Below are positions 15,692-25,210 of a stretch of 60,450 bases of DNA, piece by piece. Location: NCBI GenBank assembly GCA_020356065.1, contig CP070632.1:1026423-1086872 (forward strand). The letters run 5' to 3'. Position 1 is the stretch's first letter; the number at the start of each line of letters is the position of its first letter. The stretch is from Nitrospiraceae bacterium (lineage in GTDB: Bacteria > Nitrospirota > Thermodesulfovibrionia > UBA6902). The notes under the pieces were generated by a model that saw nothing but the letters and a program-made list of their open reading frames with translations, made no database searches and had not been told where the DNA came from. The translations under genes and the position numbers were made by a program.

Positions 15692-16624
15692 ATGGGAAAT
15701 AAATACACCGTAAGCTTTGATGAGATGAATGAAAGGCTGGACAGCTTTCTTTCCTTAAAAAGTAATATTAAGCGGTCGGGCATTCAGCGGCTGATTAAAA
15801 GCGGACTTGCCATGGTAAACGGGGGAGTTGAAAAACCGGGTTATAAGGTAAGGGCAGGTGACGTTATCGAGCTTATTGTGCCTGATGAGCCTGATACCAT
15901 TCTGATTGCTGAAGACATCCCTTTGGACATATTATGGGAAGATGACCATATGGTGGTGGTCAACAAGCCTCCCGGCATGGTCGTATATCCTGCAGTCGGC
16001 AACAGAAGCGGCACGCTCATGAATGCCCTGGCTTTCAGATGCAGGAAGCTTTCTCCGGTAGGGGCTCCCTTACGACCCGGAATAGTGCACAGACTGGACA
16101 AGGACACCTCAGGAATCATAGTAATAGCAAAAGACAACGTAACTCATTACAACCTCGTGGACCAGTTCCGCGAGCGTGAGATTGAAAAGCAGTATCTTGC
16201 ACTTGTGTTTGGTGACCTGAAAGATGACAATGGAGAGATCAAAAAGGCAATAGGCAGGTCCTGGTCAAACAGAAAGAAGATGTCGACAAAGGCAAGGCGG
16301 GCAAAAGAGGCGATAACACAATATGAAGTTGTTCAGAGGTTTGGATATGCAACGCTGGCAAGGGTCAGGATCCTGACCGGCAGGACACACCAGATTAGGG
16401 TGCATTTTGCTTTCATTGGCCATCCGGTGCTTGGAGACAGCCTGTATGGAAAAAAGCTGAAGCTTGAGACTGAAAAGGGATTCATAAAGTTTAGCCGACA
16501 GATGCTGCATGCGTGCAGCCTGAAACTGAAGCACCCGGCAACAGGGGATTACAGGGAATTCAAAGCACCAATGCCGGGGGACATGCAGGAGGCGATTGAT
16601 AAGCTGAAAGAGTTTTCGACATAA
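15692..16624 (+). CDS. rluD: Ribosomal large-subunit pseudouridine synthase, RluD/RluA family
   Basis: A 310-aa enzyme that isomerises uridines in 23S rRNA helix 69 if truly RluD. The N-terminal S4 RNA-binding domain (residues 10-75; RLDSFLSLKSNIKRSGIQRLIKSG) is followed by the catalytic domain with GIVHRLDKDTSGIIVIAK, in which the Asp of HRLDKDTSG is the nucleophile. LTGRTHQIRVHFAFIGHPVLGD and the C-terminal HACSLKLKHPATG are family-typical. Full length. The ribosome site is AAGGACGATAC. RluC or another RluA paralogue cannot be excluded, but the S4-plus-RluD length fits. Confidence 0.92.
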   Translation: MGNKYTVSFDEMNERLDSFLSLKSNIKRSGIQRLIKSGLAMVNGGVEKPGYKVRAGDVIELIVPDEPDTILIAEDIPLDILWEDDHMVVVNKPPGMVVYPAVGNRSGTLMNALAFRCRKLSPVGAPLRPGIVHRLDKDTSGIIVIAKDNVTHYNLVDQFREREIEKQYLALVFGDLKDDNGEIKKAIGRSWSNRKKMSTKARRAKEAITQYEVVQRFGYATLARVRILTGRTHQIRVHFAFIGHPVLGDSLYGKKLKLETEKGFIKFSRQMLHACSLKLKHPATGDYREFKAPMPGDMQEAIDKLKEFST

Positions 16625-19661: not shown

Positions 19662-19690
19662 TTGACAAGCCTTGCCAATTCCAATAAAGT
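19662..19690 (+). promoter_or_regulatory. Sigma70-type promoter of the PilZ-CBM48 gene
   Basis: TTGACA (19662-19667), 17-bp spacer, TAAAGT (19685-19690). A perfect -35 and 4 of 6 at -10. Transcription start is near 19697, 44 nt before the ATG. Confidence 0.6.
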
Positions 19691-19740
19691 CTAATAATAC
19701 ATGGCAACCTGAAATCACCTTTTTTTGAAAGGAGACAGCA

Positions 19741-20496
19741 ATGCTGAAAAGCAAAAGGGAATTTACAAGGTTTGATTTGCCGCTTATTGTAAAGTTCCGA
19801 CCGTCAGACGGGACTGCCCGCTATTCACTTGGATTATCAAAAAACTTTTCATTTAACGGTCTTGGCCTTGAAGCAAGGGATTTTAACTTTATCAAGAATG
19901 AGAATCTGGAGATGGAAGTAAAATTTCCACAAAGCGGATCGTCCGTGTCTCTGGCAGGTGATGTTGTCTGGAATAAACAGGCCGGTTCAAGCAACATGGC
20001 CGGAGTCAAACTCATTATGAAAGACAAAGAGTCTCATGAGGAGTTAATGGGTAAAATCTCATCAAACTGGAACATCCCGATAGAGAGTATCATAAGAAAG
20101 GGGGACACCGGCAACGAGAAAGCAGTTCCCAGGGGAAAAAAGATCGCAAAACCTGCCAGTAAGAATGACAGGGCTGAATTGCAGACCAGGCAAACAGGTT
20201 TTATTAAGAAATACCTTGCAAACGGAAATTGTAAAGTCACTTTCAGATTACCAAAAGAAGCTGCACCTGATGCCGGGGAAATAGCAATTGTGGGTGATTT
20301 CAATGAATGGGACCAGCGCCAGGCATTCATGATTCGAATGAAGAACGGGGATTTCAAGGCCACACTGGAGATACCTGCGGGGAGAGAGTATCGCTTCAGA
20401 TACTTTATCGACGGAACCAGATGGGAAAATGACTGGCAGGCAGATAAATATGTGCCGAATGATTACGGGTGTGATGATTCGGTCCTGTTACTCTGA
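19741..20496 (+). CDS. PilZ domain fused to AMPK-type glycogen-binding (CBM48) domain
   Basis: A 251-aa two-domain protein. Residues 1-105 look like a PilZ domain: an N-terminal KREFTRFDLP (the RxxxR c-di-GMP motif may be KREFTR), LSKNFSFNGLGLEA (equivalent to DxSxxG, here NFSFNG) and VVWNKQAGSSNMAGVKLI. A basic linker (about 110-155) follows. Residues 160-251 match the CBM48/AMPK beta glycogen-binding fold: KVTFRLPKEA, IAIVGDFNEWDQ and RYFIDGTRWENDW. The combination suggests a protein that responds to c-di-GMP and binds a glucan or acts as a beta-sandwich interaction module. The end overlaps the convergent MFS gene by 34 bp. The RxxxR is degenerate, so ligand binding needs testing. Confidence 0.75.
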   Translation: MLKSKREFTRFDLPLIVKFRPSDGTARYSLGLSKNFSFNGLGLEARDFNFIKNENLEMEVKFPQSGSSVSLAGDVVWNKQAGSSNMAGVKLIMKDKESHEELMGKISSNWNIPIESIIRKGDTGNEKAVPRGKKIAKPASKNDRAELQTRQTGFIKKYLANGNCKVTFRLPKEAAPDAGEIAIVGDFNEWDQRQAFMIRMKNGDFKATLEIPAGREYRFRYFIDGTRWENDWQADKYVPNDYGCDDSVLLL

Positions 20497-21863: not shown

Positions 21864-22063
21864 GAATTACTTTATGACCGGCAAAACCATTATACATAAA
21901 ATTCAAGTAAAAGAGGCGGGATTTCGATTATGAATAATGTGATATACTTTTAATACTTTAATTATTAATCATCGTCTTATCGACGAGCGGGACATACATA
22001 TCAGTAAAACAGTATTTAACGAGGGTGTCGGATCATCTCAGACAATTAATAACAGGTGAGTAC

Positions 22064-23383
22064 ATGCGTTATTTAATTATATGTGTTTTCACTTTGTCAT
22101 TCTTCTTATATCCTGTATTGATTGTTTATTCTGTTGATTACGGATCTTTGGATGATCAGTACTGGCCTTCATCAACATGCCGTGATTGCCATGTTAAGAT
22201 AATTGAGCAGCACCTGAAGTCAATGCATTCACGATCGTTCACGAATGACGTGTTCCAGGCCCAGTATTTTAAGGAGGTAGTTCCTTCTATTGAAAAAGAA
22301 AATGGCATTGCACAGGATGCAGAGGGTTGCATAGCCTGCCATTCTCCTGTTGCATATAATACCGGCAAGAAATTGGTCATGTCAGAAGACCAGATCCAAC
22401 ATAACTCATCAGGAGTTACCTGTGATTTTTGTCATACCATAAAGGACTACAAAGGAGAGACTCCGGGAGGCGGCAATTATATTTCAACACCGTCAAAACA
22501 GAAACTTGGGCCATTTAAATCAGAATCCAACTGGCATCACACATATTCAGAGCTGCATACAAAAAGCGAATTTTGCGCGATTTGTCACAATATGATAAAC
22601 CGTCATGGCGTGGAAATTAAGTCAACCTACTCTGAGTGGAAAAACAGTCCGTATGCTGAGCAGAAAATCCAGTGCCAGGACTGTCATATGAACGCGAGAG
22701 GATATCTCATAGAAGATGAACCTGTATATGAATCGGGAAAGGCTTCCTATTCGCTTCTCGGTCATTCCCCTCATCGCGAAAGACTGTATACTCACCGGTT
22801 CCCGGGTGCCCATATTAAGGAGCAGATTGCCGGATCTATTACTCTCGATATGGAATTCAGCAGTTCTGAAGCATCAGCGGGAGATGAGATCGTCATTAAA
22901 GTAACTATTGATAATTCGAGGACAGGCCATAAGATGCCTACAGGCAGTGCGGACCTCCGTTTCATGTATCTGGAGCTCAAATCGTCAGCTGGGAATAGAT
23001 CGTATGTTATTCCCGCGATTCCTGAGAAAGGATTATCTGGATATGATGTAACAGGGTCAGGCCCCTCTGATGCAGAAATTCTTGGAAATAAAATTGCTGA
23101 TGGAATGCGTATATACCGGTCCATATATGTTGATAAAGAATCCAGACATACATTAGCTTCCTATGAAGCGGTAAGGATTATATTTGATAATCGTATACGT
23201 GCATGTGAAATGCGGGAAGAAACATATGATTTTGAAATTACCGATAATGCCGGAGATTCCATAACTATTGAAGCCGGTTTATATTATATGCCTTATCCGG
23301 CCGCATTTGCAGAGAAACTGGACTTGCCGGAGCCGGAAGCATTTGAGATATCGTCAATTAAGAAGAAGCTCATCATACGATAA
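22064..23383 (+). CDS. Secreted pentaheme cytochrome c (cytochrome c554-like)
   Basis: The start is taken at MRYLIICVFTLSFFLY with a GGTGAGTAC ribosome site; upstream codons give no signal peptide. About 439 aa: Sec signal peptide 1-24, then five CxxCH heme sites (CRDCH, CIACH, CDFCH, CAICH, CQDCH), all in the first half. Extra histidines such as HSRSF and HHTYSELH can be distal ligands. The C-terminal half (from about IAGSITLDMEFSSSE) has no hemes and looks like a beta-sandwich. It resembles the multiheme cytochromes of the c554/HAO-like group in the order of its motifs. It is followed by a beta-propeller gene on the same strand; the two may be coexpressed. Confidence 0.88.
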   Translation: MRYLIICVFTLSFFLYPVLIVYSVDYGSLDDQYWPSSTCRDCHVKIIEQHLKSMHSRSFTNDVFQAQYFKEVVPSIEKENGIAQDAEGCIACHSPVAYNTGKKLVMSEDQIQHNSSGVTCDFCHTIKDYKGETPGGGNYISTPSKQKLGPFKSESNWHHTYSELHTKSEFCAICHNMINRHGVEIKSTYSEWKNSPYAEQKIQCQDCHMNARGYLIEDEPVYESGKASYSLLGHSPHRERLYTHRFPGAHIKEQIAGSITLDMEFSSSEASAGDEIVIKVTIDNSRTGHKMPTGSADLRFMYLELKSSAGNRSYVIPAIPEKGLSGYDVTGSGPSDAEILGNKIADGMRIYRSIYVDKESRHTLASYEAVRIIFDNRIRACEMREETYDFEITDNAGDSITIEAGLYYMPYPAAFAEKLDLPEPEAFEISSIKKKLIIR

Positions 23384-23466: not shown

Positions 23467-23547
23467 GGCTTTGCAGTATTCCTTTATTCAAAGCCTGTAC
23501 AGATAAAATTTTTTCTTGTCTTTTTCCGGCACTGCAGGGGTGTGCCG
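23467..23547 (+). other. Two leader stem-loops upstream of the beta-propeller gene
   Basis: GGCTTTG/CAAAGCC (23467-23473 with 23489-23495, perfect 7-bp stem, 15-nt loop) and CGGCAC/GTGCCG (23527-23532 with 23542-23547). They lie between the cytochrome stop and the next ribosome site, with a T-run between. They do not match a riboswitch class I know and could be a processing or attenuation region. Confidence 0.35.
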
Positions 23548-23569
23548 CAAAAGGGGAAAGGAGCTTGTC

Positions 23570-25210
23570 ATGGGAAAGGCAGGTGTTTATTTTGTTGAAG
23601 TAATTTCACTCATACTGTTTTTTACAGCTTCTGCCGTAGCGAATGAGAAAGAGCCCTACAGACAATGGATCAATGTCAGCAATGCTGTCATGGATGCGAA
23701 TATTAAGGATGTAGCTGTCAGTAAGGAGGATCCTGATGTGGTCTACATAATTTCAGATCAGGCTGTTTATATGACAGTGAACAGCGCAAAAAGCTGGTCT
23801 GAGCTGCTCTCCTTCAGGGCAACGGACAACCGTTTGAATACGATTACGCTGTCAAAAGACGCAAACACTGTTTTTGTCGGCACAAAAGATGGTCTTTATA
23901 TGGGGATGGATCGAGGAGCGAAATGGGAAAGAATATTCAGGGGGATAGGTGAGCTTGAGAATGTGGTATATGCCGTTTCAGTAAATGCCCTGAACAATGA
24001 AATCATTATTATCGGGACAATGGACGGAATATGTCACACGAAAGACAGAGGCACAAACTGGTCTAAAGGGAAGAATATTCACGCTCACACTATTGTCACA
24101 TCAATAGCAGCGGACAGTTCTCATCAGGAAATCCTGTATGATTGCTCAAGTAACGGGGTGTATAAAAGTCTTGACAGCGGTTTACGCTGGAGCCGGGTTT
24201 ATGAATTAATAACTCCTGAAGAGGATTATCAGTATCTTTTCGAGGATGAAGATGAAGATATTTCTCAAATCATAGAGGTAATTAAAACAAGAGATATTCT
24301 TGTCGGACCTGCAGAGTACAGCAATATATATCTGGCAACGTCTAATGGTTTGATAATAAGCTCTGATAATGGCATGTCATGGATTAATACCGGCAGTGCC
24401 GGACTGTTAACCCGGAATATTAAATCAATAACAATTGCTAACAATGATATGCTGTACGCGGCCACGGACAGAGGAGTATTTAGATACGTAAAGGATGCTG
24501 ACAGGTGGCAGGCACTGACCAGGGGGCTTTCTACCTTTGATATCCGTTCTCTGGATTCGGGAACATATCGTGGAAGTGACAAGCAGGTTCTCTGGTCAGC
24601 ATCGGGAAACGGGGTCTATAGAACTCCGGGACAAGCAGTTAGTTTCATATCTGGAGAAAACGATATGACAGTGGAAGAAGCCCTTTCCATGTTTTCTCAT
24701 GAGCCGGCTTTGGCGGAGATACGGCAGGTTGCAATAGCATATTCCGAGGTCGAGCCTGAAAAAATCAGGAAGTGGAGAAAGGCGGCCGCAGCAAAGGCAC
24801 TACTCCCTGACCTGAGAGTGGCTTACGATGATGCCAAAGACTGGCAAAGCAGTACCTATTTCTATAAAGATACGTATGAGGAGCAGTATTTAAAAGATGA
24901 TGATATTACGAGGGGGCATGACAAAGGCTGGTCGGTTTCACTTACATGGGAGCTGGGAGACCTGATCTGGAACAGTGCGCAGACAACAATAGATGCCAGG
25001 TCCAGACTCATGGTCCAGTTAAGAGATGATATCCTTAATGAGGTTACACGGCTTTATTTTGAACGAAAAAGGATGCAGGTAGAAATGATCTCCTCTCCGC
25101 CGGCAGATTTTATGAGCAGGATGGATAAAGAGCTGAAACTGCAGGAACTTACGGCCGGTATCGATGCCCTCACAGGCTTATATCTATCCAAAAGACTGGG
25201 CCGGAAATAA
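23570..25210 (+). CDS. Secreted beta-propeller (YCF48/sialidase-like) protein with conserved C-terminal domain
   Basis: The start is chosen at MGKAGVYFVEV, which has an AAAGGAGCTTGTC ribosome site. About 546 aa. The signal peptide ends near ASAVANEKE. Residues about 30-360 hold repeats such as TNSAK/DRGAKWERIF and DRGTNWSKGK and DSGLRWSR, giving the S-x-D-x-G-x-x-W Asp-box pattern of BNR/YCF48 propellers, with about six blades. An acidic insert (EDEDEDISQ) occurs near residue 230. The C-terminal domain (about 370-546) has EIRQVAIAYSEVEPEKIRKWR and MVQLRDDILNEVTRLYFERKR. It is predicted periplasmic or outer-membrane linked. It follows a secreted pentaheme cytochrome on the same strand, so the two may form an extracytoplasmic electron-transfer pair. 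Function is not known. Confidence 0.8.
   Translation: MGKAGVYFVEVISLILFFTASAVANEKEPYRQWINVSNAVMDANIKDVAVSKEDPDVVYIISDQAVYMTVNSAKSWSELLSFRATDNRLNTITLSKDANTVFVGTKDGLYMGMDRGAKWERIFRGIGELENVVYAVSVNALNNEIIIIGTMDGICHTKDRGTNWSKGKNIHAHTIVTSIAADSSHQEILYDCSSNGVYKSLDSGLRWSRVYELITPEEDYQYLFEDEDEDISQIIEVIKTRDILVGPAEYSNIYLATSNGLIISSDNGMSWINTGSAGLLTRNIKSITIANNDMLYAATDRGVFRYVKDADRWQALTRGLSTFDIRSLDSGTYRGSDKQVLWSASGNGVYRTPGQAVSFISGENDMTVEEALSMFSHEPALAEIRQVAIAYSEVEPEKIRKWRKAAAAKALLPDLRVAYDDAKDWQSSTYFYKDTYEEQYLKDDDITRGHDKGWSVSLTWELGDLIWNSAQTTIDARSRLMVQLRDDILNEVTRLYFERKRMQVEMISSPPADFMSRMDKELKLQELTAGIDALTGLYLSKRLGRK

Follow-up and report, generated by a model that had tools for sequence, protein, structure and literature searches.

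We found that a single protein of 251 aa encoded in the window, a 60,450-nucleotide stretch of a Nitrospiraceae genome (3.17 Mb in a single contig), joins a PilZ domain to a CBM48 domain of the type found in AMPK beta subunits. We tentatively read the protein as a cytosolic c-di-GMP receptor and alpha-glucan binder that would relay the signal to glycogen or to the enzymes that act on it. This reading is built on the architecture, the predicted folds, the conservation of the motifs, the purifying selection, and the distribution described below, from which we infer that the protein binds both c-di-GMP and glucan and that the two activities are coupled. The gene is an open reading frame with an ATG start at window positions 19741 to 20496 on the plus strand, as are all of its parts listed below. 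A ribosome-binding-like AAAGGAG (19728 to 19734, plus strand) can be read in the sequence ahead of it. Farther upstream lies a sigma-70-like promoter match, TTGACA-17-TAAAGT (19662 to 19690, plus strand; 10 of 12 matches). Sigma-70-like sites number 9 in the region, with 3.3 expected, and the promoter match is no argument for function.

The PilZ domain spans residues 5 to 102 (19753 to 20046) and scored 36.8 bits against PF07238, for which the cutoff is 22.5. The CBM48, or AMPK-beta-type glycogen-binding, domain spans residues 152 to 251 (20194 to 20493). There, AMPK1_CBM (PF16561) matched residues 179 to 226 with 30.1 bits (Pfam cutoff, 26.8), and CBM_48 (PF02922) matched residues 175 to 235 with 23.4 bits, barely above its Pfam cutoff of 22.4. 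The first-pass annotation had proposed that one 251-aa protein carries both PilZ and CBM48, and this was borne out, as neither half fails its Pfam cutoffs. PilZ, CBM_48, and AMPK1_CBM were also matched (E ≤ 1e-3) by all 23 rows of alignment A1, which holds the window protein and 22 relatives; it includes the fusion of genome G046 (L019) and leaves out a decayed clade from genomes G004, G018, and G024. NCBIfam models of GlgB matched residues 161 to 236 only, which is the CBM48 part. Among the five Pfam matches at an E value of ≤0.1, we found no catalytic domain in the 251-aa protein. In AMPK beta, the kinase and gamma subunits are bound by the C-terminal AMPKBI domain, which had no Pfam match in the protein at the same threshold. 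There is no hydrophobic segment (the highest 19-residue Kyte-Doolittle mean is 0.42), and inspection of the sequence by eye found no signal peptide.

The AlphaFold2 model of the 251-aa protein consists of two beta-rich folded domains and a linker (mean pLDDT, 76; pTM, 0.48). The linker is predicted to be disordered at residues 119 to 149 (20095 to 20187; pLDDT, <50). In the 294-aa fusion protein of G002, a genome of the same genus, the linker and lead-in segment is apparently tandem-duplicated (L018:1195-2079). When the halves were compared with known structures by VIA-align, the N half matched 4xrn_D, a PilZ domain with c-di-GMP, with a Z score of 13.1 (rmsd, 2.2; 104 residues aligned). The C half matched 1z0m_B, the glycogen-binding domain of AMPK beta1, with a Z score of 12.7 (rmsd, 1.4; 80 aligned) and 5e6z_B, the branching enzyme of Escherichia coli, with a Z score of 13.1 (rmsd, 2.9; 96 aligned). 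CBM48 domains of feruloyl esterases (6rzn_A and 8bf3_A) were also among the fold matches, and thus the sugar cannot be told from the fold by itself. A CBM48 fold can also act as a protein contact. The top sequence relatives in the PDB were AMPK beta glycogen-binding domains.

We found both c-di-GMP motifs in the PilZ half. The RxxxR motif is R6-E-F-T-R10 (19756 to 19770), and its two arginines are invariant both in A1 (23/23) and in a further set, made up of 33 fusion proteins (33/33). This second set, scored per alignment column, includes the window protein and paralogues and is without the G046 fusion (L019). The [D/N]xSxxG motif is N35-F-S37-F-N-G40 (19843 to 19860). S37 and G40 are invariant in A1 (23/23); in the second set, G40 is kept in 33/33 proteins, N or D occupies position 35 in 33/33, and S37 is kept in 30/33. 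The canonical forms given in the available portion of PMC11800159 are RxxxR and [D/N]xSxxG. It had been suggested at first pass that the motifs, seen there as KREFTR and NFSFNG, are degenerate and that c-di-GMP binding may have been lost. In contrast, R6-EFT-R10 and NFSFNG match the canonical forms exactly and are conserved in relatives, so a loss of binding is not indicated.

The CBM48 half retains the main residues through which AMPK beta1 holds glycogen. According to the part of PMC6274970 that was available, glycogen binding by AMPK beta1 is abolished by W100G and K126Q and weakened by W133L and G147R. The equivalent of W100 is W190 (20308 to 20310), a tryptophan in 33/33 fused and 26/26 stand-alone CBM48 domains. 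R220 (20398 to 20400) stands at the position of K126, which is R or K in 29/33 fused and 26/26 stand-alone domains. W228 (20422 to 20424), equivalent to W133, is W in 30/33 fused and 26/26 stand-alone domains, and G243, equivalent to G147, is kept in all 33 fusion proteins. Three further AMPK contacts, L146, T148, and N150, are replaced, by Y242, C244, and D246 in the window protein.

The exceptions at S37 and W228 all come from the decayed clade. In the fusion proteins of G004, G018, and G024, which form one clade, the PilZ motif reads DLCSEG or DLCSGG, with S37 replaced by C, R220 by S, and W228 by R; only these 3 of the 33 proteins are altered at S37 or W228. A separate CBM48-PilZ gene pair in G004 and G024 keeps its motifs. 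This joint decay of the PilZ and CBM48 sites, a single event in the sequences, is no more than suggestive of sites that are coupled. The double loss would also be expected if a redundant protein were simply decaying as a whole. Because the PilZ serine and the CBM48 contacts were lost together in this clade, with the separate pair intact in G004 and G024, the two sites may be functionally coupled. If so, the fusion could be a bacterial counterpart of glycogen sensing by AMPK beta, in which one small protein reads both a second messenger and a fuel store, and we regard this extension as doubtful.

We found the fusion in at least 27 of 61 genomes, the window's own included. It was recovered in one piece in 22 of these and as two pieces within one open frame in 5. 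The carriers comprise at least 25 of 37 genomes of the same family and at least 2 of 4 of a second family of the order; among the matches listed, it was present in 0 of the 20 others. Five of the 27 (G007, G009, G020, G028, and G031) have two or three copies. A scan of the phylum gave matches in 53 of 395 genomes at an E value of ≤1e-20. Both halves were covered only in family f1; beyond it, the matches cover the CBM48 half only, at a threshold that more divergent fusions would escape. When relatives were searched for with patterns from the CBM48 half only, PilZ and CBM48 never shared a frame in the 80 loci kept (the best 80 of 151 relatives). One locus, L047, was set aside as a fusion: the match seemed to span both halves, but the CBM48 gene and the PilZ genes after it are in fact separate. 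Phages gave no match. On plasmids, the matches listed (20 of 35) all begin at residue 104 or later and never reach the body of the PilZ domain.

A tree of CBM48 domains unites the 32 fused ones from family f1 in a single branch (support, 97/92) and groups the f5 fusion protein of G044 with stand-alone CBM48 domains. A single change suffices to explain the fusion in 24% of bootstrap trees. It is possible that the fusion arose once or twice. We compared the window protein with its nearest relative (G001) and found dN/dS ratios of 0.11 for PilZ, 0.36 for the linker (residues 116 to 150), and 0.075 for CBM48. Taken together, the conserved distribution, the one-branch tree, and the low dN/dS ratios lead us to conclude that the PilZ-CBM48 protein is a stable, selected architecture and not an accident of annotation.

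According to our tentative model, the CBM48 half would, rather like the AMPK beta subunit, dock on glycogen or on an alpha-glucan related to it, and the flexible linker, about 30 to 45 residues in the window protein, would tether the two domains. The protein would most likely be an adaptor because it has no catalytic domain. c-di-GMP would alter either how firmly the protein holds the polymer or how it interacts with enzymes of glycogen metabolism, for example the branching enzyme, GlgB. The storage or use of alpha-glucan might thus follow the lifestyle that c-di-GMP controls. The first-pass annotation had proposed a link from c-di-GMP to glycogen or surface glucan. We retain the link to glucan as the best reading, and we consider a surface glucan less likely because the protein has no hydrophobic segment and no signal peptide that is recognizable by eye.

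The other readings differ in what they ask of each half. The CBM48 half could be a protein-docking module and not a glucan binder, passing the signal to an enzyme partner (GlgB or a debranching enzyme, for example) or to the CBM48 proteins that stand alone; this is possible, if somewhat doubtful. Consistently with docking, the available part of PMC6274970 reports that the debranching enzyme binds residues 68 to 123 of AMPK beta1 independently of glycogen. The replaced equivalents of L146, T148, and N150 point the same way, as does the fact that the presence of the fusion does not track canonical glgA. However, docking alone would not need W190, R/K220, and W228, and these are kept at the frequencies given above (33/33, 29/33, and 30/33 in fused domains and 26/26 in stand-alone domains). 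An unlikely reading accepts both c-di-GMP binding and glycan binding but takes the glycan to be another polymer, exported or on the surface, so that the protein would regulate exopolysaccharide and not storage. PilZ domains often control exopolysaccharide synthases. BcsA and Alg44 structures were among the fold matches of the protein, as were the CBM48 domains of feruloyl esterases, which act on xylan. The lack of a hydrophobic segment and of a signal peptide (by eye) argues against this reading, and we saw no polysaccharide export gene among the window neighbors scanned. That the top sequence relatives in the PDB are AMPK beta glycogen-binding domains also argues against it. Finally, the PilZ half might have lost c-di-GMP and serve as a structural adaptor, as was first proposed. 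The loss of the motif serine in the G004, G018, and G024 clade indicates that this can happen in the family, but the exact and conserved RxxxR and NxSxxG of the window protein make it very improbable here.

In favor of our reading, the genome in which the window lies has features of both glycogen metabolism and c-di-GMP signaling. We found 27 GGDEF-matching stretches in it, along with GlgA, two GlgB proteins, GlgX, and TreZ. Its glycogen cluster (G000:C1, approximately 43 to 51 kb) encodes GlgA, a GH57-type branching-enzyme-like protein (113 bits on a fragment, under the cutoff), and GlgB. A GGDEF protein (L202:9049-12714) is encoded divergently to glgB in this cluster, and the same order occurs in G001. 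By eye, no GGDEF gene adjoins glgB in four other loci (L204 to L207, from G007, G009, and, for two of them, G031). The fusion gene itself lies outside any glycogen operon.

We considered glgA as an obligate partner of the fusion and rejected it, since canonical glgA (TIGR02095, above cutoff) is present in only 10 of the 27 genomes listed with a fusion, compared with 27 of the 34 others. Within the family, it is present in 9 of 25 genomes with a listed fusion and in 7 of 12 without. That glgA is rarer where the fusion is present is the opposite of what a simple tie to glycogen synthase would give. PF08323, in whatever form, occurs in 24 of the 27 fusion-bearing genomes, mostly as a divergent form of approximately 580 aa where glgA is absent. 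A CBM48-bearing frame of at least 300 aa is listed for 26 of the 27. Such frames were identified as GlgB by NCBIfam for the two of the window's own genome, one each in G007 and G009, and two in G031; the others are defined by length only.

Among the fusion loci listed, we saw no neighbor conserved across the family. Two window neighbors, an HMA protein and an MFS transporter, are shared with G001 and G002, and the HMA protein is also found in G003. A pseudouridine synthase gene lies approximately 3 kb upstream of the fusion (window positions 15692 to 16624). G009, G020, and G028, which fall on one branch when the fusions are placed in a tree, have a relative of this gene close to their fusion. 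Elsewhere in the window are genes for a multiheme cytochrome c554-like protein (22025 to 23383) and, after it, a YCF48/BNR-like protein (23516 to 25210).

The fusion can be compared with several known systems. It shares the PilZ fold, RxxxR, and [D/N]xSxxG with the PilZ c-di-GMP receptors (for example, the Pseudomonas aeruginosa PilZ domain of 4xrn, VCA0042 [2rde], Alg44, BcsA, and YcgR). Unlike the fusion, none of the receptors of this kind described in the open-access literature that we found has a CBM48 or AMPK-type domain. With the AMPK beta CBM (PF16561; 1z0m and 4yee), it has in common the CBM fold, the W100/W133 pair, and the basic position of K126. It differs from AMPK beta in lacking the C-terminal interaction domain (by Pfam) and in carrying a PilZ domain N-terminal of the CBM. 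Small stand-alone CBM48 proteins are homologous to its C half and are without the PilZ domain. GlgX of Streptomyces venezuelae, a precedent for the link proposed here, ties c-di-GMP to glycogen, and the available text of PMC9530166 describes it as a glycogen debranching enzyme that is activated by c-di-GMP. In that account, GlgX is an enzyme that binds c-di-GMP itself, whereas the window protein has no GH13 catalytic domain (by Pfam) and would sense the messenger through PilZ.

The titles and abstracts listed for our searches of the open-access literature contained no description of a PilZ-CBM48 protein; one open-access paper mentions PilZ and CBM48, but apart from each other in the portion available. 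We concluded that c-di-GMP control of glycogen is known, from GlgX of Streptomyces, and that a PilZ receptor with a CBM48 output domain would, by these searches, be new. If our reading is true, the fusion would be a second, unrelated c-di-GMP route to energy storage, in a phylum other than that of the actinobacterial GlgX as presented in the accessible part of PMC9530166. It would also make it possible to test directly whether control of carbon storage by c-di-GMP is a more general phenomenon, and it would supply a partner and a hypothesis for the small CBM48 proteins, which are widespread.

These stand-alone CBM48 proteins form a family that is present in records of many phyla, and in Pseudoalteromonas, Vibrio, and Streptomyces replicons the CBM48 relatives are annotated as isoamylase early set domain-containing proteins. 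The window's own genome encodes three of them, 53 to 59% identical to the C half of the fusion. In G004, G006, and G024, a stand-alone CBM48 gene and one or two PilZ genes that also stand alone lie next to each other and share a strand. Such neighbors were seen for 3 of 26 stand-alone CBM48 genes, in two genera, among loci picked for the pair, so this is no rate. At eight loci (L174, L178, L184, L187, L192, L193, L197, and L198), the stand-alone CBM48 gene recurs near DUF255/YyaL-like and rubrerythrin-like genes, often along with rhodanese-like and oxidoreductase-like genes (named by eye).

Each of the two domain types also occurs with other partners. In the window's own genome, a paralogue on the minus strand (L005:895-1977) has the same type of PilZ domain and a SPOR domain (36.1 bits, Pfam), a peptidoglycan-binding fold. 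A second protein of that genome, encoded on the plus strand (L006:1492-2526), resembles it by eye, with PilZ alone scored. The PilZ module seems to be employed repeatedly with partners that bind glycans. In a member of the Planctomycetota, a ParA/MinD-like ATPase carries a C-terminal AMPK1_CBM domain (L124:4558-6225; 46.6 bits), and it is possible that this protein is a glycogen-positioning ATPase.
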